Positions 1,678 through 32,595 of a stretch of DNA of 37,821 nt are shown piece after piece. The translations under genes were made by a program, and so were the position numbers. The stretch covers positions 1-37,821 of the IMG/VR virus record IMGVR_UViG_3300025881_000038; one strand, written 5' to 3'. The notes below the pieces were generated by a model, which saw only the letters and a list, made by a program, of their open reading frames with translations, made no database searches and had not been told where the DNA came from. The DNA comes from a virus. The first letter of the stretch is position 1. Each line of letters opens with the position of its first letter.

Positions 1678-2117
1678 GTAATGAGATAAATATAAAAGCA
1701 ATTTTTTTAAAAGAAAGCAGTCTTGAAATACCAGAGAGTCCTGACATTTTTTTTAATACTTCTAATGAAGTAGTTACTGAATTGAATTGTACATCTTCTT
1801 TTTCTTCTTTTGAAATTAACAATGAAGATAACTATGAAATAACTTTAGCTTTAGAACTTATAGCTAAAGATAAAACATACAATAAAATTTTATACATATT
1901 AAACTTTATTTACTCAGGATTTTTTAGTCTTAAAAATTATACAAAGCAAGAAGAAATAGATGAAGCATTGGCTGTAGATTGTCCTAACATAATATTTCCT
2001 TATGCAAGACAATATGTTTCTACAATCACAGGGTTAACTTCTTTACCTGTTTCTTTAATACAAGATATTAACTTTAAAAAATTATATTACAATGAAATTG
2101 GAAAGGAATACAAATGA
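1674..2117 (+). CDS. secB: SecB-like protein-export chaperone
   Basis: The 147 aa protein is close to E. coli SecB (155 aa) in length and aligns by eye over nearly all of it. The N-terminal FLKESSLEIPESPDIFF corresponds to the SecB stretch of form YTKDxSFExPxxPxxF. The hallmark follows at residues ~106-138: CPNIIFPYARQYVSTIT, then LPVSLIQDINFKKLY, matching CPNxLFPYAR...FPxLxLxPxNFxxLF. SecB tetramers hold precursors unfolded and hand them to SecA for export. Acidic residues are kept at the two N-terminal SecA-contact positions (E14 and E18), but the acidic residue after strand three (E77 in E. coli) seems to be N. The flexible C-terminal tail is missing. The gene overlaps the small membrane protein gene before it and the ribonucleotide reductase gene after it. 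SecB is rare in phages; the exported curli-type proteins encoded at 4952-7876 are candidate clients. Confidence 0.88.
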   Translation: MSNEINIKAIFLKESSLEIPESPDIFFNTSNEVVTELNCTSSFSSFEINNEDNYEITLALELIAKDKTYNKILYILNFIYSGFFSLKNYTKQEEIDEALAVDCPNIIFPYARQYVSTITGLTSLPVSLIQDINFKKLYYNEIGKEYK

Positions 2118-4033
2118 ACACTACTGAACTACCTACTAACTATCAACAGTTTATACATCTAAGCAGATATGCTAGATGGAATGAAGAACATCAACGTAGA
2201 GAAACTTGGGAAGAAACTGTAACAAGATACTTTGATTTTTTTGGAAAACAAATAGTACAAAATACTAAATTAAATAAAGTTGACTATGCTGTAATTAGAT
2301 CTACATTACAAAAAGCTGTGTTGTCATTAGATGTTATGCCAAGTATGAGAGCATTGATGTCAGCAGGTAATGCTTTAGAAAAAGATAACGTAGCAGGATT
2401 TAACTGTAGCTATGTAGCTGTTGATACACCTAGAGCTTTTGATGAAACATTATACATACTTATGTGTGGTACAGGGGTAGGGTTTAGCGTTGAACGTCAA
2501 TACATAAATCAATTACCAGATTTACCAGAGGATTTATTTCCTACAGATACTGTTATTAAAGTAGCTGATTCTAAGATTGGATGGGCAAAGTCCTACAAAG
2601 AACTTATGTCTTTACTATATGCAGGACAGATTCCTACATGGGATGTTTCAAACATTAGACCTTATGGTGCTAGACTTAAAACTTTTGGAGGCAGAGCAAG
2701 TGGCCCAGATCCTCTTGAAGAGTTGTTTGATTTTACTATTAATATTTTTAAAGATGCAATGGAGAAACAACAAAGAAAACTTCATTCATTAAACTGTCAT
2801 GATTTGATGTGTAAGATTGCAGAAGTTGTAGTGGTAGGTGGAGTAAGGCGAAGTGCTTTAATCTCTCTTAGCAATCTCTCAGACAGTCGCATGCGTAATG
2901 CTAAGTCAGGTGCTTGGTGGGAAGATAATCAGCAAAGAGCATTAGCTAATAACTCTGTAGCCTATACAGAAAAACCAGACGTAGGTACTTTTATGCGTGA
3001 ATGGTTATCTTTGTATGAATCTAAAAGTGGTGAGCGTGGTATCTTTAATCGTCAAGCTGCAGAGAAACAAGCATCAAAGAATGGTAGGCGAGAAGACTAT
3101 AAAGACTTTGGTTGTAATCCTTGTAGTGAAATTATTCTACGCAATAAACAATTCTGTAATCTTACTGAGGTTGTAGTTAGAGAAGATGATGATATTAATA
3201 CTTTAAAAACTAAAACAGAAGCAGCGACTATACTTGGTACATTCCAGGCTACGCTAACAAATTTTAGATACCTGACAAGTAAATGGAAACACAATACTTT
3301 AGAAGAGTCATTGCTTGGTGTATCACTTACAGGTATAATGGACAATGTTAATATGATAAATGGCAAGATAGATTTACAAGAGTTAAAAGATCTGTCAATA
3401 TCCGTTAATAAAGTATGGGCTAAGAAACTAGGTATCCCCCAATCCGCAGCAATTACCTGCGTTAAACCTAGCGGAACAGTAAGTCAACTGGTCAATAGTG
3501 CTTCTGGTATTCACACTAGACATAGCCCATACTACCTTCGCACCGTCAGAGCAGATAAGAAAGATCCTTTAGCAAAATTAATGGTAGATGCAGGAGTCTA
3601 TCATGAAGATGATCTTACTAAACCAGAACACACTTATGTCTTTTACTTTCCTATGAAGAGTCCTAAAGGTGCGCTGACTAGAAAAGATATATCAGCTATT
3701 GAACACTTAAATATCTGGAAGGACTATCAAGATAAATGGTGTGAGCATAAACCTTCTGTAACAATCTCAGTTAAAGAAGAAGAACAATTAGATGTAGGAG
3801 CTTGGGTTTATAAAAATCTAGATGAAACATCTGGTATCTCTTTCTTACCTTACTCAGATCATTCATATAAACAAGCTCCTTATCAAGAGATAACTTATAA
3901 TGAATATAGAAAATGGTTAAAGAAAACTACAGACATAGTAGATTGGTCTAAGATAACAGAGTATGAGACAGAAGATAATACTGAAAATACTAAAGAGCTT
4001 GCATGTAGTGCAGGAACTTGTGAGATAATTTAA
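2114..4033 (+). CDS. nrdJ: Adenosylcobalamin-dependent (class II) ribonucleotide reductase
   Basis: The enzyme reduces ribonucleotides to deoxyribonucleotides using a B12-generated thiyl radical, feeding phage DNA synthesis. All catalytic residues of the monomeric Lactobacillus leichmannii type are visible: C98 in GFNCSY, the N-P-C-S-E motif with N335, C337 (radical cysteine) and E339, and C348 in FCNLTE. The C337-C348 spacing of 11 equals C408-C419 of the reference enzyme. The C-terminal shuttle pair is C631 and C636 in ACSAGTCEII. At 639 aa it is about 100 residues shorter than the L. leichmannii enzyme; about 50 of these are lost between the first cysteine and the radical cysteine, where the reference has its allosteric insertion. 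AGGA precedes the ATG, which overlaps the SecB stop. No separate cobalamin gene is seen, so B12 must come from the host. Confidence 0.95.
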   Translation: MNTTELPTNYQQFIHLSRYARWNEEHQRRETWEETVTRYFDFFGKQIVQNTKLNKVDYAVIRSTLQKAVLSLDVMPSMRALMSAGNALEKDNVAGFNCSYVAVDTPRAFDETLYILMCGTGVGFSVERQYINQLPDLPEDLFPTDTVIKVADSKIGWAKSYKELMSLLYAGQIPTWDVSNIRPYGARLKTFGGRASGPDPLEELFDFTINIFKDAMEKQQRKLHSLNCHDLMCKIAEVVVVGGVRRSALISLSNLSDSRMRNAKSGAWWEDNQQRALANNSVAYTEKPDVGTFMREWLSLYESKSGERGIFNRQAAEKQASKNGRREDYKDFGCNPCSEIILRNKQFCNLTEVVVREDDDINTLKTKTEAATILGTFQATLTNFRYLTSKWKHNTLEESLLGVSLTGIMDNVNMINGKIDLQELKDLSISVNKVWAKKLGIPQSAAITCVKPSGTVSQLVNSASGIHTRHSPYYLRTVRADKKDPLAKLMVDAGVYHEDDLTKPEHTYVFYFPMKSPKGALTRKDISAIEHLNIWKDYQDKWCEHKPSVTISVKEEEQLDVGAWVYKNLDETSGISFLPYSDHSYKQAPYQEITYNEYRKWLKKTTDIVDWSKITEYETEDNTENTKELACSAGTCEII

Positions 4034-4260: not shown

Positions 4261-4955
4261 TGATAGACTTTAAAAGTTTAATTGATCCTATGTCTGTTGA
4301 GGAATTTAAAACAGAATATAAAGATAAAAAATTCTGTGTTATTAAAGGAAATAGATTTAGAAGATTTATGTACAGTAATATTATTTCTTGGCATAGACTT
4401 TCTGATTACATTAATAATGATAGAGCAGTAGCAGGCATACAAGCTATACTACCCAATGGTAAAAAACTTTGTATGGAAAAAAATAATCTTTATCAAGGAT
4501 CTAAAACTTCATGGGCTAAAAAAGATTACTTTGATAAAAAATATTTACATACTCTTTGGAATAACAATGGATCTATTATACTAACTAAAGCATCTATGCT
4601 TACTCAAAGTATTTCAGATATAGCAGAAGCTATAGAGACAGAGTTTAAAGGCGCATGTGATGCTCATTTTTATTGTAGTAGAAACTCTAAAGGAAAATCT
4701 TTTCGCCCACATATAGATCATGATGATAATTTTCTTGTACATTGCATTGGCTCAGTACAATGGACAGTCTGTAATAGTTTTGAAAACAATACAAAAGATG
4801 TAGAAACTTTTAAATTAACTGCAGGAGATATGCTTTACATTCCAAAAGGAATAGGCCATTCTGCTATACCCTTATCTAAAAGAATATCTATATCTGTTCC
4901 TTTATTAGAAGAAAAAAATATAGTGCCTATAAATAGAAACTTTTATAATTTTTAA
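4260..4955 (+). CDS. JmjC/cupin-type putative 2-oxoglutarate-Fe(II) oxygenase
   Basis: The C-terminal half carries the metal-binding pattern of JmjC/Cupin_4 oxygenases. PHIDHDDNFLVHCIGSVQWT gives the H-x-D pair in the setting HxDxxDxFxxxxxGxxxW, and GDMLYIPKGIGHSAIPL gives the third histidine after the usual GD-x-LYIP-x-G turn. This is the layout of ribosomal-protein hydroxylases such as YcfD, which modify ribosomal proteins using Fe(II), 2-oxoglutarate and oxygen. At 231 aa it is much shorter than YcfD and lacks room for the C-terminal winged-helix region. The start is GTG overlapping the previous stop; no strong ribosome-binding site is seen, and ATG at 4291 is an alternative. Its stop overlaps by 3 bases the stop of the convergent FecR-like gene. 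Fold class is likely; substrate unknown. Confidence 0.7.
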   Translation: MIDFKSLIDPMSVEEFKTEYKDKKFCVIKGNRFRRFMYSNIISWHRLSDYINNDRAVAGIQAILPNGKKLCMEKNNLYQGSKTSWAKKDYFDKKYLHTLWNNNGSIILTKASMLTQSISDIAEAIETEFKGACDAHFYCSRNSKGKSFRPHIDHDDNFLVHCIGSVQWTVCNSFENNTKDVETFKLTAGDMLYIPKGIGHSAIPLSKRISISVPLLEEKNIVPINRNFYNF

Positions 4956-6148
4956 CTTCCTTGTTTAATAGTAATAGTAGAACTACTCCCTCCGTTGGTA
5001 GTTATTTGATTTACTTTTCCTTCTTGTTCTATTCTTATATTGTAAGAACCTGATTTGTCTACGCTCATCTCTAGTGTATCTTCTATAGCTCTTAAGAACT
5101 TTAAGTTTGTGTCAGTAACAAAGGTACTGATCTGCGTATCCTTATCATAACCTACTGCTGTTCCTTTAACTCCGTCTGCTGACAAAGCTTTCTCAGCTTT
5201 ACCTAACTCATCTACTTCTTGAATAATGTCTAAGAGATCTTCTAGAAAGTTACCTGCCAAATAATCTACATCAAGCTCTGTATATTCTAAATCATCTTTA
5301 GCTAAAGCATCTTCTTCAAGTCCATCAAACTCTAAAAAGTCTACATCTAATAGATTATCTACAGCAGTAACTGATTCATCTGTTTGAATCTCTTTAGTCT
5401 CTGGAGGATTTACAATAAGCATATTGTCAATCATATCTAGTGTTAGGTCTAATACTACAGCAGGAGTAGGTGCTGTTTCAAAATTATAGACTGTAGTAGC
5501 CTCATAAGCTTTGTTAAGTATTACCTGACCTAAGGCCGTATCAACAGTTATCTCCCCACTTGCATTACCAAACTCATCAGGCAAAAGTATTACCAAAGCT
5601 TCACCAGTTTCTTTTACAGTTATTGTGAAGTCTGTCCCCCTTATTCCAATGGTTGCCGCGTGTGTCCTGATTGTAATATTATCTTTAGGTATGCGTGGCT
5701 TCTTACTGGATATAAATCTCCCGGTTCCTTTTACAAAATTAAGAGCCATACTTGACTTGCTAGGATTGACATCAAATACAAACTCATCAATAATCACATT
5801 GCTGTGTTCTGTTAAACGTATTGTTGTATCATCTCTAAACGTAACACCCATTCTACCTTGTGCAGTTTCTAGTTTGTCCATAGAGTTAAGCGAGAAATCA
5901 ATCTCGCTCTTATAAGGTTTATCTCTTACTACTCTGGTATTTCCGTTTAATTGTGTAATGTTTCCAATATTAACATCCAACGCTTGTGCCTTGATCGTCT
6001 TGGTTAATGCAAACTGTACCGTTAGAACCAGTAGAAGTAACTTTAACCCAATCTGAATCTTGTGTGCTTTGTTGATCCACATCAAAGGCTCTTGAACTTC
6101 CTGTGTGTGTAAGGTGAAAATATCCCTGGGCATAACCATCTCCATCAT
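4952..6148 (-). CDS. FecR-domain exported protein with curlin-like C-terminal repeat
   Basis: After a signal peptide (hydrophobic GLKLLLLVLTVQFAL, likely cleavage at KAQA|LDV) comes a FecR-type domain, roughly residues 57-190. It contains LDVNIGNITQLNGNTRV, LETAQGRMGVTFRDDTTIRL and LNFVKGTGRFISS, followed by the usual IRTHAATIGIRGTDF. An acidic linker (about 230-310) follows. The last 30 residues contain NIRIEQEGKVNQIT and STITIKQGS, resembling a curlin QxGxxN repeat. FecR domains are best known as periplasmic signal sensors, but many are parts of secreted or surface proteins. The start is uncertain: ATGs lie at 6148, 6133 (GGAG six bases before) and 6082. All lie inside the curlin-like gene in another frame, and the whole signal peptide is encoded there. 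It ends the - strand unit, tail to tail with the oxygenase gene. Confidence 0.78.
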   Translation of the reverse strand: MMEMVMPRDIFTLHTQEVQEPLMWINKAHKIQIGLKLLLLVLTVQFALTKTIKAQALDVNIGNITQLNGNTRVVRDKPYKSEIDFSLNSMDKLETAQGRMGVTFRDDTTIRLTEHSNVIIDEFVFDVNPSKSSMALNFVKGTGRFISSKKPRIPKDNITIRTHAATIGIRGTDFTITVKETGEALVILLPDEFGNASGEITVDTALGQVILNKAYEATTVYNFETAPTPAVVLDLTLDMIDNMLIVNPPETKEIQTDESVTAVDNLLDVDFLEFDGLEEDALAKDDLEYTELDVDYLAGNFLEDLLDIIQEVDELGKAEKALSADGVKGTAVGYDKDTQISTFVTDTNLKFLRAIEDTLEMSVDKSGSYNIRIEQEGKVNQITTNGGSSSTITIKQGS

Positions 6149-13896: not shown

Positions 13897-16362
13897 TTAG
13901 TTCTCCTCGCTATCTTCTCTTCTAGCTAGTAATCCTATGTTTTTTGAACTGTCTTTAGTAAAACCTACAATATCTTGAGCTACATCTTGTTTCATATTAA
14001 ACAAGTCAATTTTTCTTTGAGCTGCATCTTGTTTCATTTTAAACTTTTGTCTTTGCAAACTTATTTGAGCTGCAGTTCTACCAGATATAGGCATAGTATC
14101 TTCAATCATTTTAGCTAACCAAACTGCTGTTCCTTTTTGTACAGCTTTAGTTATATCTATATTGTTTTCATTAGCAAACTGTATGTATGAATCTGCTATA
14201 TCTTGTTTAACTACATTCCAATTAGTTGAAGTAAAATCATCATAGAATGTCATTAGTTTTGCTTGATCTTTAATATCTTTTCTAGCATCTTCTGTAGCAT
14301 CATAAAATTCTTTTACTTTTTCAGAAGCATTTTGACCAAGAGTTATCCAATCTTGAGCAAACTGTCTTGCTCCTTCAACAGCTTCATCTTTTGCAAATCC
14401 TAAATCTATACCTAACTCTCCTGATGTAATATACTTATCTGTTTTAGCAACAGAAGTAAGAGCATCATTAGCTTCATCAGAAACTACTTTAGCTGCTTTT
14501 TTAATTTTTGCAGGAGCATCATCAATAAATTGTTTTGCTGCTTTCTTAACTACAGGTATAGTTTCTTTTACATATTCTTGAACATCTGTTATGTTTACTG
14601 GGCCAAAATATTTTAAATCTTGTTTAACTGTATCTTTAAGTGTTTTCATTATTCCTGGAATATTTATTTGTTTTTTGCCTAAAAGAACGTCATCTATAGA
14701 ATTGTATCCTGATTGTTTTATTTTAGTATAATTACCTTTGCCTAATGTAGGATCTATATCAGGCATAGTATCTAAACCTAATCCTGTTGGAGGGCCTGCT
14801 TCCGTCAAACCTTCTTTAATTTTGTTAGACATTGACGCTTCCATACTTTTAAAACTATTTAACTCTTTACTTCTACTTGCTAATAGTTCCATTACGCTAT
14901 CCCTAACAGGGCTTGGAGGTTGTAATAATATTACTTGTTCTATTGAGTCTACATTGTCTTTTGTAAAAACACTATTTGGATCACTTAAAAAGTTTTGCAG
15001 TTTCATAAGCTCTGAAGAACCGTCACTGGTTGCTTGTCCTGTACTAGAATTTGTAGTAACAGCATTAGTCATAGCTCTAGAAACTTGTGTCAGATTCTGA
15101 TCAAATTTTCTTTGTTCATCTGAAGAAGTAACTTTATAAATACCTCCTGAATTTATTTGACCTACAGTTAATTGCCTTCTTCTTTCAGCAGTTAAAGGTG
15201 TATAAGTTATGTTTATTCCTCCATATTGAGGGCCTAAGCCTAAACCTGCAAGACTACTTGGTGTAATTGAAAGATTAGGAATTCCTTCTGTTGTTTCTTT
15301 AGATACTATATCTATAGCTTGTTGCATAAAATGGAACTTATCATAGATACCTCCTGCTCCTTTTGTTTTTTCATATTGATCTTGCAAAGCAGAAGAAATC
15401 ATTGTTACATCAGTCCAATAATCTTCTTTAGTAATTTTATCTTCAGGATTTCCTCCCATTGCTCCTGTTAAAACATAAGGAGATATTTCTTGATCTTTTC
15501 CGCCAAGGTTATATTTTATTTTAAGTCTCTCTCCTGATACATAACTTTTCTTTTGATCATTACTAATAAAGCTACTTCTTTCATTTTCATGTTTAGTAAT
15601 AACCCCAGGAAAATTAAGATCTTCTCCAGTATTAGAAAATATACTTTGCAATTCATTGTTACCTATTGCTGTCTCATACTTACCTTGTTGTTCATCCCAA
15701 GCAAGTGAAGAAGCAAAGACTTGATCTTTAAAAGCTTGTATTGCAGCATCTTCAGGAGTTCCTGTAGTCCATTTCTTTTTACCCATAATAAAATTAATAG
15801 CTCCAGGAAGAAGACCGCCATCTTTTACCATCTCTTTCATGTGTTTAGCTGTAGCTGTATTGAAAGGTTCAAAGTATCTAGCTTTCTTTTGTTCTACTGT
15901 TTGATCTCCTGAGAGTTTAAAGTCTGCAGATAGATCTAATAATCTTTTATATTCTGTTAAATCATCATTCATGTCTTTTGCAGCTATTACATTTAATTGT
16001 TCTTGAGTATAACCTGAACCAATTCCTTGATTTAATAATTTATCCTCTATCCATTGTTTGCGATAGTCAGATTTGTATTGTGTTTCCCAATCCGCTCTAT
16101 TATTAAATCTTGCAGTATGATCTTTTTGAAATTGAAAACTAGTATTAAAGTAATCTTCCATTCTTTGTAACTCAGGTTGTTGTCCTGTCCAAAAATCTTT
16201 AGCGCGTTGTTGTGCTTTTACTTTTAAAACTTGATCTGCGCCTATTACTAAAGGAGCTATTAAAGCAGCTTTCTTTCCTTTTTTTCTAGCTTTGGCTACT
16301 CTTTGTTGAGAATCTGTAACAATTCTATTAACTTGAGCATCACCCATTATACTTTTTGCCAT
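13897..16362 (-). CDS. Internal virion protein, 821 aa
   Basis: I cannot assign a named family. Size, position directly before the transglycosylase-bearing giant protein and helical, charged composition match the T7 gp15-like internal core protein slot. The N-terminus is basic (SQQRVAKARKKGKKAALIAP) with a short hydrophobic stretch. Much of the C-terminal half (residues ~560-790) is lysine- and alanine-rich helix with heptad-like periodicity (KAAKQFIDDAPAKIKKAAKV). No catalytic motif is evident. ATG and stop nearly abut the neighbours on both sides. The protein is probably packaged in the capsid and ejected with the DNA; this is inferred from gene order only. Confidence 0.65.
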   Translation of the reverse strand: MAKSIMGDAQVNRIVTDSQQRVAKARKKGKKAALIAPLVIGADQVLKVKAQQRAKDFWTGQQPELQRMEDYFNTSFQFQKDHTARFNNRADWETQYKSDYRKQWIEDKLLNQGIGSGYTQEQLNVIAAKDMNDDLTEYKRLLDLSADFKLSGDQTVEQKKARYFEPFNTATAKHMKEMVKDGGLLPGAINFIMGKKKWTTGTPEDAAIQAFKDQVFASSLAWDEQQGKYETAIGNNELQSIFSNTGEDLNFPGVITKHENERSSFISNDQKKSYVSGERLKIKYNLGGKDQEISPYVLTGAMGGNPEDKITKEDYWTDVTMISSALQDQYEKTKGAGGIYDKFHFMQQAIDIVSKETTEGIPNLSITPSSLAGLGLGPQYGGINITYTPLTAERRRQLTVGQINSGGIYKVTSSDEQRKFDQNLTQVSRAMTNAVTTNSSTGQATSDGSSELMKLQNFLSDPNSVFTKDNVDSIEQVILLQPPSPVRDSVMELLASRSKELNSFKSMEASMSNKIKEGLTEAGPPTGLGLDTMPDIDPTLGKGNYTKIKQSGYNSIDDVLLGKKQINIPGIMKTLKDTVKQDLKYFGPVNITDVQEYVKETIPVVKKAAKQFIDDAPAKIKKAAKVVSDEANDALTSVAKTDKYITSGELGIDLGFAKDEAVEGARQFAQDWITLGQNASEKVKEFYDATEDARKDIKDQAKLMTFYDDFTSTNWNVVKQDIADSYIQFANENNIDITKAVQKGTAVWLAKMIEDTMPISGRTAAQISLQRQKFKMKQDAAQRKIDLFNMKQDVAQDIVGFTKDSSKNIGLLARREDSEEN

Positions 16363-29934: not shown

Positions 29935-30924
29935 TTAGTCAATACCGTAGAAAGCAGAAACTAATGCTTCACCGCGTAGTACTTTAGCTCCATATACATG
30001 AAGACCTCGCACTATATCGCCAAAGCTATCAGGATCACGCAATACTTCAGTACTTGTAATCGTCTGAGCAGTAGCTGTAGATGACATGTGGCCTGCGATA
30101 CATTTTCCTGCAGCGTTAGTTGTATCTGCAATGTTGTTAGACTTGTACATGCTGAATCCACGCAACTTACCAGAAGTTACTAGACCATTTCTTATAGAAC
30201 CTTGTCCTGCATTATAATCAACAGACAAAAGTTTTGAAGATGAACTTGCAAGAACTTCATAGAAGTCAGGTGATGCTAAGAACCATCTTCCTTCTTCTGG
30301 TATGTTCTGCTCATCCATTAAACGTGCCATGTGTGATAGTACGTCAATAGGATCATGTTCACTTGATGCAAAACCTATGTCAAGATTACCAGTTCCATCA
30401 AATGTACCTGCCGCTAAATCAGTAGCGTTGTCAGAACCAAGAATATGGTTAGGACTTGAGGCAGAAACACCTGCGAACATAGTAGCAATAACACCTTCAT
30501 CATAAGCATCTCTAAGAGCGTATGCTGCAGATGAGCTAGCTACTTCTTTAAAATTCACATGAGACATAGCTGTTTCAATGTCATCAACTTTGAATTTAAA
30601 AGCGTTAGCTGTATCAACTACAAGCGTTAACTCTTGATCAGTTAGTTTAGTGTCTGTAACATCTGCACCACGTTCATACTGGTATACAGTGATTTCAGGT
30701 TCTTTTATAATCTTTACAGAATCTCCATAAGCGGACAACTCACCTGCATAATCTGTGTTGGTGATCGCTTCTACAACCGAAGCCTTTCTAAAGAAGTTAA
30801 GAACCTTTTTAGAGTAGACTGAAGGAAGGAAAAACGAATTAGTCTGACCACTTACGGAGTTTGCAAAGTTAGCGTTAGTATCAGTACTTGGTTCAAAGAA
30901 CTGATCTGATTGGTTATAAGCCAT
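29935..30924 (-). CDS. Major capsid protein
   Basis: The 329 aa protein has the features of a HK97-fold coat protein of T7-like marine phages: a flexible N-terminal arm (QSDQFFEPSTDTNANFANSV), then a helix-rich spine (SVYSKKVLNFFRKASVVEAI), a strand region (GDSVKIIKEPEITVYQYERG) and DQELTLVVDTANAFKFKVDD, a common MCP stretch leading into the long helix. The C-terminal half includes WFLASPDFYEVLASSSSKLL, MSSTATAQTITSTEVLRDPD and a final GAKVLRGEALVSAFYGID. It follows the scaffold gene (GGAG upstream) and precedes a strong terminator, as expected for the most abundant virion protein. The family-level call is strong; no catalytic site is expected. Confidence 0.88.
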   Translation of the reverse strand: MAYNQSDQFFEPSTDTNANFANSVSGQTNSFFLPSVYSKKVLNFFRKASVVEAITNTDYAGELSAYGDSVKIIKEPEITVYQYERGADVTDTKLTDQELTLVVDTANAFKFKVDDIETAMSHVNFKEVASSSAAYALRDAYDEGVIATMFAGVSASSPNHILGSDNATDLAAGTFDGTGNLDIGFASSEHDPIDVLSHMARLMDEQNIPEEGRWFLASPDFYEVLASSSSKLLSVDYNAGQGSIRNGLVTSGKLRGFSMYKSNNIADTTNAAGKCIAGHMSSTATAQTITSTEVLRDPDSFGDIVRGLHVYGAKVLRGEALVSAFYGID

Positions 30925-30958: not shown

Positions 30959-31804
30959 TTATTTTACTACTCTGCCCTCATGAATTGCTTTTCCGATTTC
31001 TTCTTCATACTTGTCAAATTCAATAATAGACATTGCAGCGATTTCCCTTTCTGTCCAAATTTTATCTTGCTTTGGTTCAACTGCTGTTGTTTTAGTTGAA
31101 ACCATATCAGCGGCAGATTTATTGGACTTCTTAGAAGAAGGCTTCTCAACTCTAGCAGAACTTTCTATTCCTACATCTCGCTTATATAAATCTAAAGCGC
31201 GACTTGCAAGATCTCCATCACTATTATTTTTATATATCCAATCTTGAATTGATTGAGGTTGTGACTTAGCCCATTGATGGAAATCATCACTTTCTCTAAT
31301 ATCTTCAAAATCAGGATGATTATTCATCAACCTTTCATGTGCTTGTTTAGTAACTAACTCTGTTTCGCGTTCTTGCAAAGCTTTTAATTTTTCTTCTAAG
31401 ACTTTCATCTGTTCAGAACTTTGCATGTGCGCTACAGTTTCAACTACACCCATCACATCTGGATACTCTTCTCTAAATTTAGCTAAGTCATCTGGAGACT
31501 TTGGAGCTACATATTCAGGCACATTTTTAGCTGCTTGCTCTAGTAGTTCTTGCTCTCTAGTTTTAAACTCATTAAGTTTAGAGTCATAGTGTTTTTTTAA
31601 AGAATCATATCTTTGTTTATAGTTATCAGTATTCTCTTCAGAAGACTTCTTACTACTCTTTCTAGTTTCTTTCTTTTTAGTCTCAACTTGAGGCTTTTCA
31701 AAAAAGGCACTATCCGCAGATACAAAATCTTGGGAGTCTCCTTTATGCCATTCTTTATTAGCGTTATAAGGATTAGCTTGTTCTTCTTTTTGTTGTGTTG
31801 CCAT
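30959..31804 (-). CDS. Capsid scaffolding protein
   Basis: The 281 aa product is highly charged and mostly helical. It has an acidic/basic low-complexity N-terminus (ETKKKETRKSSKKSSEENTD) and a coiled-coil core at residues ~60-160 (YDSLKKHYDSKLNEFKTREQ; LEEKLKALQERETELVTKQA). A short domain with HPDFEDIRESDDFHQWAKSQ, seen in other phage scaffolds, leads to a basic C-terminal piece that would bind the coat protein. It sits directly before the major capsid gene, the standard scaffold place. AGGAG precedes the ATG. The 131-base spacer upstream carries possible structured repeats. Confidence 0.82.
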   Translation of the reverse strand: MATQQKEEQANPYNANKEWHKGDSQDFVSADSAFFEKPQVETKKKETRKSSKKSSEENTDNYKQRYDSLKKHYDSKLNEFKTREQELLEQAAKNVPEYVAPKSPDDLAKFREEYPDVMGVVETVAHMQSSEQMKVLEEKLKALQERETELVTKQAHERLMNNHPDFEDIRESDDFHQWAKSQPQSIQDWIYKNNSDGDLASRALDLYKRDVGIESSARVEKPSSKKSNKSAADMVSTKTTAVEPKQDKIWTEREIAAMSIIEFDKYEEEIGKAIHEGRVVK

Positions 31805-31819
31805 TTCTTCTCTCCTACT

Positions 31820-31928
31820 CAGGGCTTTCTAAACAAAGTAGCTGTAATGCGCATAACAGGGTTTGTTTTTGTAAAGGTAGCCTTTCGGTTTATGTTGTGA
31901 CAGAGGGCTTAGTAACTAAGGTAGCTCT
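31820..31928. repeat. Three imperfect repeats with hairpin potential in the portal-scaffold spacer
   Basis: This is the longest non-coding stretch in the window (31805-31935). Read on the + strand, three units start with CAGGG or CAGAGGG and run to GTAGC, 20 or so bases later: 31820-31844, 31857-31883 and 31901-31928. Units one and three can fold alike: an outer stem (CAG/CTG; AGAG/CTCT), an internal loop (GG opposite TAG or GTAG) and an inner stem (CTTT/AAAG; CTTA/TAAG). Stem bases differ but pair in both. Unit two fits this less well and has a competing AAAGG-TAG-CCTTT hairpin. There is no T-run after them on the - strand, so they are not intrinsic terminators. Regulation or processing ahead of the scaffold and capsid genes is possible. 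Confidence 0.4.
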
Positions 31929-31935
31929 ATCGTTT

Positions 31936-32595
31936 TTACTGCATGCGTGGATTAACAGATAACATACCTTTCCGAATTTCATCTTTAGCTATGTCTTGAT
32001 CAACAGGTTTACCAAATTGGTCTACTTGTTGTTCTTCTACTTCACCACCTTCTTGCATATCTTGTCTCATAGCATCAGCTTCTTTTTCAGCATCTTCCAT
32101 CATACTTTGTAATCTGTCCGCGCCTATTTGTTCTGTTGCTTTTGCTGTAAAGACAAACTCACCGTCAGATAACCTTGCAGGTATACTGTCGGAAACACCT
32201 GATCCTGGGCCGTTAACTGGCCCTGATCCTGCGAATTCTGTTGCTGTATCTAGAACTCTATCAAATAACATGCTGAGTTCTGGATCAGCTTCTAATTTAG
32301 TCATTAATGTTTTTTCTTGTTCAGGATTTAAAGATTGCTCTATTATAAAGTCTAAGTAGTTATCTTCCATTTGTTCATCAGGCATCATTCCACCTTCTTG
32401 ATATCCCATTCTAGCTACAACTTCTGGAGCTTCTTTTCTCAATGCTTCAATACCTTTGCCTCCTTCTTTCATCTGCTTACGCTCATCTTTTTCTTTAGTA
32501 GAAATTTCTTTCTCTAATTTAACAGGAGCTATAGATATTGCTATGCCTTCCATTTGTTCTTTCATTGAGCCATTCTGTTTCTTTTTTTTCTGCAT
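31936..32595 (-). CDS. portal-associated virion/assembly protein, 219 aa
   Basis: The N-terminal third is basic and charged (MQKKKKQNGSMKEQMEGIAI). The middle contains GYQEGGMMPDEQMEDNYLDF, and the core holds GPGSGVSDSIPARLSDGEFV, a motif widely shared among phage proteins, including the C-termini of some tape measures. The end is acidic and methionine/glutamine-rich. I know the protein as a conserved neighbour of the portal in marine phages, with no defined role. It starts about 25 bases after the portal stop. It lies between portal and scaffold, so head assembly is the likely setting. Confidence 0.65.
   Translation of the reverse strand: MQKKKKQNGSMKEQMEGIAISIAPVKLEKEISTKEKDERKQMKEGGKGIEALRKEAPEVVARMGYQEGGMMPDEQMEDNYLDFIIEQSLNPEQEKTLMTKLEADPELSMLFDRVLDTATEFAGSGPVNGPGSGVSDSIPARLSDGEFVFTAKATEQIGADRLQSMMEDAEKEADAMRQDMQEGGEVEEQQVDQFGKPVDQDIAKDEIRKGMLSVNPRMQ

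Follow-up and report, generated by a model that had tools for sequence, protein, structure and literature searches.

What does a 131-base spacer do when it stands directly ahead of a putative scaffold gene in a phage structural operon? The DNA studied is the viral contig IMGVR_UViG_3300025881_000038, positions 1-37,821 (hereafter 'the window', meaning this whole stretch at its full length of 37,821 nucleotides). Its relatives are the Pelagibacter phages HTVC103P, 104P and 115P, and the gene that follows the spacer ties it to the HMO-2011-type phages. On the minus strand, the terminase and portal genes are followed by a gene for a protein of 219 aa; after it come the 131-base spacer (31805-31935), a gene for a protein of 281 aa and the gene for the major capsid protein. 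The original prediction called this gap the only real spacer of the operon, which is nearly so: a 55-aa ORF lies in another gap, of 169 bases, but gaps of 34 and 96 bases remain.

The upstream neighbour of the spacer (31936-32595, minus strand, 219 aa) gave weak low-complexity matches to tape-measure families, while the second gene downstream (29935-30924, minus strand) encodes the major capsid protein (phrog_267, 2.9e-68). Between spacer and capsid gene lies the 281-aa gene (30959-31804, minus strand), with its start codon at 31804-31802 and an AGGAG ribosome-binding site at 31812-31816; its product matches phrog_13678, which PHROGs lists as of unknown function. Pfam searches with this protein gave no convincing family and comparison with the PDB no significant fold match. 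Its predicted model has long helices and disordered ends (mean pLDDT 73.5, pTM 0.33), with weak structural matches to several named scaffold or capsid assembly proteins (best named E 1e-3). From its position between the portal and major capsid genes, the helical model with disordered ends and these weak matches, we infer that it is the scaffold protein, and we refer to it as the putative scaffold. Elsewhere in the window, a 639-aa protein (2114-4033, plus strand) weakly matched domains of B12-dependent ribonucleotide reductase, and a 398-aa protein (4952-6148, minus strand) carries a FecR domain within the phage structural region.

Read on the plus strand, the spacer does hold the three units first noticed there, at 31820-31842, 31857-31881 and 31903-31925, and these units occur nowhere else in the window. 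Units one and two run from CAGGG to GTAGC as described, while the third begins GAGGG; the start-to-start distances are 37 and 46 bases, the former within and the latter beyond the 37-44 bases given originally. The structural genes around the spacer are all on the minus strand, and the RNA is therefore the reverse complement of the stretch that had been described, with every unit reading GCUAC ... CCCUG or CCCUC. The reported absence of T-runs was borne out, as no intrinsic terminator (a GC stem followed by a T-run) occurs at 31700-32100. A promoter was looked for in the spacer and none was found, and with both searches empty the earlier suggestion of a free small regulatory RNA is unsupported.

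Homologous spacers were gathered from 14 loci, from 80 found via the scaffold protein and 80 via a profile, from one found via Vibrio phage CHOED and from 23 named phage records. When aligned, they show that the anatomy is not that of three like units: the minus-strand element, a putative scaffold leader (31821-31931), comprises one lone hairpin (A) and one double-loop hairpin (B). Hairpin A (31899-31931, minus strand; R1 match 49.9 bits), the unit farther from the scaffold gene, reads GAUAGAG [CUAC] CUUAG-UUA-CUAAG [CC] CUCUGUC, with the CUAC strand of its loop at 31921-31924 and the partner CC at 31906-31907. Among 32 distinct sequences 97.3% of its cells are paired and eight of the 12 pairs show two-sided change, a pairing score that was reached by none of 500 shuffles; in slid versions pairing falls to 29-44%. 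The loop strand in these 32 relatives is CUAC (21) or CCAC (11), and its partner CA (19) or CC (13).

Hairpin B (31821-31882, minus strand) is formed by units one and two, which pair with each other and not separately as had been proposed; only unit three folds alone into the stem, internal loop and stem envisaged. It reads GG[CUAC]CUUU..AAACAAA[CC]CUGU-loop-ACAG[CUAC]UUUGUUU..AAAG[CC]CU, and thus contains one internal loop twice, in opposite directions (head to head). The outer loop has its CUAC strand at 31877-31880 and its CC at 31823-31824, the inner, reversed loop its CUAC strand at 31838-31841 and its CC at 31860-31861; an inner helix, AAACAAA (31862-31868) with UUUGUUU (31831-31837), encloses the inner loop and apical stem (31831-31868). 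Among 38 distinct sequences 99.3% of cells are paired, with two-sided change in five of 16 pairs, and the inner loop is closed by a GC pair in 24 of them and by an AU pair in 14. For the two hairpins together, 97-99% of cells are paired and 13 of 28 pairs change on both sides. We rejected a model with two separate hairpins for the proximal units, which showed no two-sided changes and was broken at one pair in 14 of the 38. Directly before hairpin B (31883-31888) relatives have CCGAAA-GG or CCUUGA-GG, and the closing GG of the hairpin could therefore pair with the upstream CC, an alternative state that this sequence makes possible.

Fold energy gives no support when the spacer is taken whole: the minus strand (z -0.08) and the plus strand (z +1.62) do not lie below their shuffles, and the energy test originally proposed fails for it. 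Taken singly, hairpin A scores z -2.5 and hairpin B z -1.5; for hairpin B alone, energy minimization gives a fold other than that of the covariation model. It is covariation that decides. Hairpins A and B and the HMO-type leaders described below all passed this test clearly, which confirms the selection on RNA structure that the three units had hinted at, and the presence of a conserved RNA element at 31821-31931 of the minus strand is practically certain.

At the core of the element is an internal loop, 4x2 and of the form G[CUAC]C / G[CC]C, found once in hairpin A and twice in hairpin B, and its distribution reaches well beyond the window. Elements with one to three such loops stand before the putative scaffold gene in 122 of 125 distinct leaders (those <60 bases left out) of HMO-2011-type phages and their relatives. 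The same descriptor, whose loop variants (CGAC, ACAC, AUAC/AC and five-base forms) were picked after the sequences had been viewed, matched three of 625 dinucleotide shuffles; it also matched 17 of 2970 genome windows, some of which may be true leader copies. The misses kept among the 125 are L182 (whose chosen start lies inside the coding region), L135 and L136; further rows, L056, L074 and L077 as well as L013 and L015 from A2, were left out, and L001 and other leaders <150 bases are absent from the unit lists. The window leader fits the family definition (two stems flanking a G[CUAC]C / G[CC or CA]C internal loop, before the phrog_13678 gene) with three loops. Among named records, 21 of 23 carry the element by descriptor; phiM6 falls narrowly outside, and Slicky01 has the scaffold-family protein and lacks the element.

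The leader of HMO-2011, GUUGG[CUAC]UCACU[CC]CCAUAC-CCGACA-GUGUGG[CUAC]GGUGG[CC]CCAAC, has a double loop with five pairs between, and in HMO-type phages this inner helix occurs as TCATC/GGTGG, TTATC/GATAA, CTATG/CATAG, CAATC/GATTG, CTAACC/GGTTAG, CTATCC/GGATAG and more. Single-loop leaders are found in CRP-2 (GG[CUAC]CCAGC-UACG-GCUGG[CC]CC), in HTVC033P and, with AUAC/AC, in CRP-738, and the CHOED leader reads UUAG[AUAC]CGUAC-UCCUU-GUACG[AC]CUAA (its pairing judged by eye). Compensatory stem changes were seen in pelagiphage-type and HMO-type leaders alike. One parse of HMO-type leaders demanded near-full pairing (55 distinct leaders parsed, 30 of 100 failed), and its pairing counts therefore lean towards the model, a bias of which the pattern-scan counts given below are free. 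A register-shifted pairing, GGCUACU/GGUGGCC, which is preferred by energy in HMO-2011, was set aside as a candidate for the conserved fold, since the four pairs that it adds are formed in 31 of 59 and four of 45 distinct cores, versus 47 and 27 for the covarying register. It is possibly an alternative state.

Other features of these phages deserve mention. In HMO-2011 and CRP phages there is a second long spacer of 220-330 bases between the scaffold and coat genes (L096:1579-1819), with TTGACA..TATAAC-like promoter elements (by eye) in HMO-2011 and GGCGGCCACC-like stretches in some. In CRP-345 (L140:397-430) the annotated start of the scaffold gene falls within the RNA element, and the likelier start is an ATG in the same frame, 33 bases farther downstream and preceded by AAGGA.

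To what gene does the element belong? We scanned with a pattern that is blind to context and pairing (GGCTAC-N5-CCCC-N4..20-GGCTAC-N5-CCCC, and its N6 form), which gave at least 120 loci in viral contigs for each form. Among the matches listed, the N-stretches were fully paired in 105 of 121 (N5) and 88 of 120 (N6), and a scaffold-family ORF lay just downstream of 112 of 121 and 117 of 120, respectively; the fully paired matches listed that had no scaffold hit all ended about 100 bases or less from the end of their contig. Counting distinct elements among the matches listed, the inter-loop helix was fully paired in 67 of 80 for N5 (mean 39.0, maximum 46 in 1000 reshufflings of partners) and in 44 of 69 for N6 (mean 18.2, maximum 26). 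Kinship inflates such counts, while relatedness alone cannot yield independent two-sided changes in several pairs. The bacterial genomes gave 121 pattern matches at 115 loci, with three fully paired and three followed by a scaffold-family ORF; the paired or scaffold-adjacent matches in these bacterial contigs (L468-L582) are possibly phage sequence within assemblies.

Searches within genomes point the same way. R1, built on hairpin A only, found one place per genome, always the scaffold leader, in 11 of 19 records (eight viral records and three of 11 named phages, the other eight named phages being missed), and across the window it found no second copy (next best E 1.3). A stricter descriptor applied to the window and nine named phages gave eight leader matches and one elsewhere (CRP-207 at 16303, taken as chance), and missed the leaders of HTVC115P, CRP-2, CRP-207 and CRP-1. 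In essence there is thus one copy per genome, placed before the putative scaffold gene. The distance from the last CC to the start codon is 16-20 bases in 40 pelagiphage-type elements and 12-21 bases in 54 HMO-type elements (CRP-345 left out).

It is because the CC lies 12-21 bases before the start codon that we read the element as a translational operator. Some protein would recognize the loop, bind the leader and block or tune entry of the 30S subunit at the adjacent AGGAG; cis-acting translational control of this general kind seems likely to us. Our first candidate for the reader is the scaffold itself, since the element follows its gene from phages of Pelagibacter to those of Vibrio and Aeromonas hosts, and since autoregulation is known in P22. 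The scaffold might bind hairpin B, which is two-fold symmetric, in dimeric form, while the range of one to three loops means that two-fold symmetry is not universal. Free, unused scaffold would turn down its own synthesis, and scaffold output would thereby follow capsid assembly. We give the scaffold protein roughly even odds of being the reader, and we put the probability of the main reading, in which the element is a translational operator and its most likely ligand the product of the putative scaffold's own gene, at about 0.55. Of the three functions originally offered, a protein-binding element is the best fit, one that would control the scaffold gene, with its single locus per genome, always before this gene, and its fixed distance from the start codon.

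The main alternative is that the element is a translational operator or a stability element with another reader, which would be the phage's capsid protein, portal protein or an early regulator, or else a host factor that is conserved. The conserved loop would imply a specific partner in this case too, and the portal and capsid genes share the operon with the element; on the other hand, the element is tied to the scaffold gene and not to the operon's other genes. As the hosts of the related phages span alpha- and gammaproteobacteria, a lineage-specific host factor is disfavoured and a phage-encoded partner favoured. In a descriptor search the exact loop was absent from E. coli 16S, 23S and 5S rRNA, so that simple mimicry of a ribosomal-protein site is disfavoured as well. 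We regard another reader as unlikely, if by no means far-fetched.

Could the hairpins instead be processing sites of RNase III type, comparable to the late sites of T7, at which the scaffold-capsid mRNA acquires its 5' end? Such sites consist of a long, near-continuous double helix of about two turns, for which 7-9 pairs are short, and T7 has about ten of them. Internal-loop hairpins ahead of a highly expressed structural gene, in a spacer that lacks promoter and terminator, would suit this explanation, which the original prediction had also raised. Many copies, however, are single hairpins of 7-9 pairs, and single units have no more than 7-12 pairs, well short of a long helix; the element occurs once per genome; and, to our knowledge, a fixed CUAC/CC loop is not required by RNase III. 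Transcript processing is therefore improbable as the function.

A small-molecule riboswitch in the scaffold leader is less probable still. The conserved loop within a 5' leader would be in keeping with one, as would the glutamine riboswitch that one related contig has in its structural operon. However, none of the 4227 families of Rfam release 15 matched the element at the gathering threshold in the window and 15 related loci, there is no terminator to act as an expression platform, and the element accompanies one structural gene family and no metabolic genes. Around the spacer, Rfam gave two weak, chance-level matches only, up to E 10. The sole gathering-level match over the window and the 15 loci is that separate glutamine riboswitch (RF01739, 48.6 bits, L015:7445-7497, plus strand), which has the major capsid gene directly upstream and small structural genes downstream, where a glnA leader would hardly be expected. 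Finally, that these are DNA-level repeats (protein-binding sites or promoter repeats) which merely resemble RNA stems has very little to recommend it: the imperfect direct repeats and the palindromic octamer at 31847-31854 would fit, but stems that change with compensation, and mRNA-strand G-U pairs that outnumber A-C mismatches by 69 to five in window-clade elements and by 141 to 13 in HMO-type elements (among the matches listed), are not what a DNA site would show. The excess of G-U pairs also shows that the structure is read on the mRNA strand.

Returning to the operator reading, the apical loop of hairpin B adds a further possibility. It contains a self-complementary octamer, AUGCGCAU (31847-31854, minus strand), a candidate kissing-loop site whose hexamer is kept in relatives. 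A self-complementary hexamer is present in the apical loop of 35 of 38 window-clade elements, versus 4.9 expected from shuffled loops (in one of the 35, L032, it sits at another site, leaving 34 in place), and it is kept despite sequence change, with cores GUCGAC, GUGCAC, UGCGCA and UGGCCA. In HMO-type elements it was found in one of 80 and three of 69 (among the matches listed). Perhaps, then, the loop of the window clade serves to form RNA dimers by kissing. More speculatively, the element might be an assembly-coupled switch, with a scaffold dimer on the two-fold symmetric operator and, in the pelagiphage clade, mRNAs joined by their palindromic loops; repression would then depend on the concentrations of both free scaffold and mRNA. 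We consider this doubtful; if true, it would be a case of a DNA-phage mRNA leader working as a homodimer.

We rate the element as a new RNA family, a cis-acting and probably autogenous leader. Our literature search, which lay outside most subscription journals, found no description of such an element and nothing on late-gene control in HMO-2011-type phages; the text of an HMO-2011-type paper contains none of the words intergenic, hairpin, promoter or terminator, and its single 'scaffold' refers to a different gene. These phages, dominant and widespread in the sea according to one account (PMC9038755), thus gain a defined RNA element whose loop is conserved, which occurs in many natural variants and which has one gene only as its target. 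The element is also a marker that can name the scaffold gene and correct start codons, as in CRP-345.

How does the element compare with known systems? Ribosomal-protein operon leaders are autogenous, with structured RNA beside the ribosome-binding site. The element resembles them in its structured RNA by a ribosome-binding site, its one gene family and the probable binding of its own product, and differs from them in that the CUAC/CC loop has no rRNA counterpart (in E. coli, with the descriptor used) and its partner is putative. With the dimerization initiation site of HIV-1, for which GUGCAC is the palindrome (PMC7357161), it shares a six-base self-complementary apical loop, with GUGCAC itself in some relatives of the window; unlike that site, the palindrome is confined to the window's clade, the RNA is the mRNA of a DNA phage and dimerization is only predicted.

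A further parallel is phage P22, in which the window's order of portal, scaffold and coat genes is shared. Wyckoff and Casjens reportedly described in 1985 the autoregulation of the P22 scaffolding gene, acting after transcription, and post-transcriptional control of a scaffold gene would be common to both (in the window it is only proposed). Scaffold autoregulation in P22 is cited in PMC5744158. P22 differs in having 13 bases between its portal and scaffold genes, without such an element, and alignment of the putative scaffold with P22 gp8 by hhalign gave a probability of 0.3% over one aligned column. Questions from the P22 era can now be put directly to the test, namely how a phage keeps scaffold output in step with the assembly of its capsids, and what RNA is read by the scaffold. 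Since P22 lacks the element and its scaffold is unrelated, the control proposed here is P22-like, while the system is not the same.
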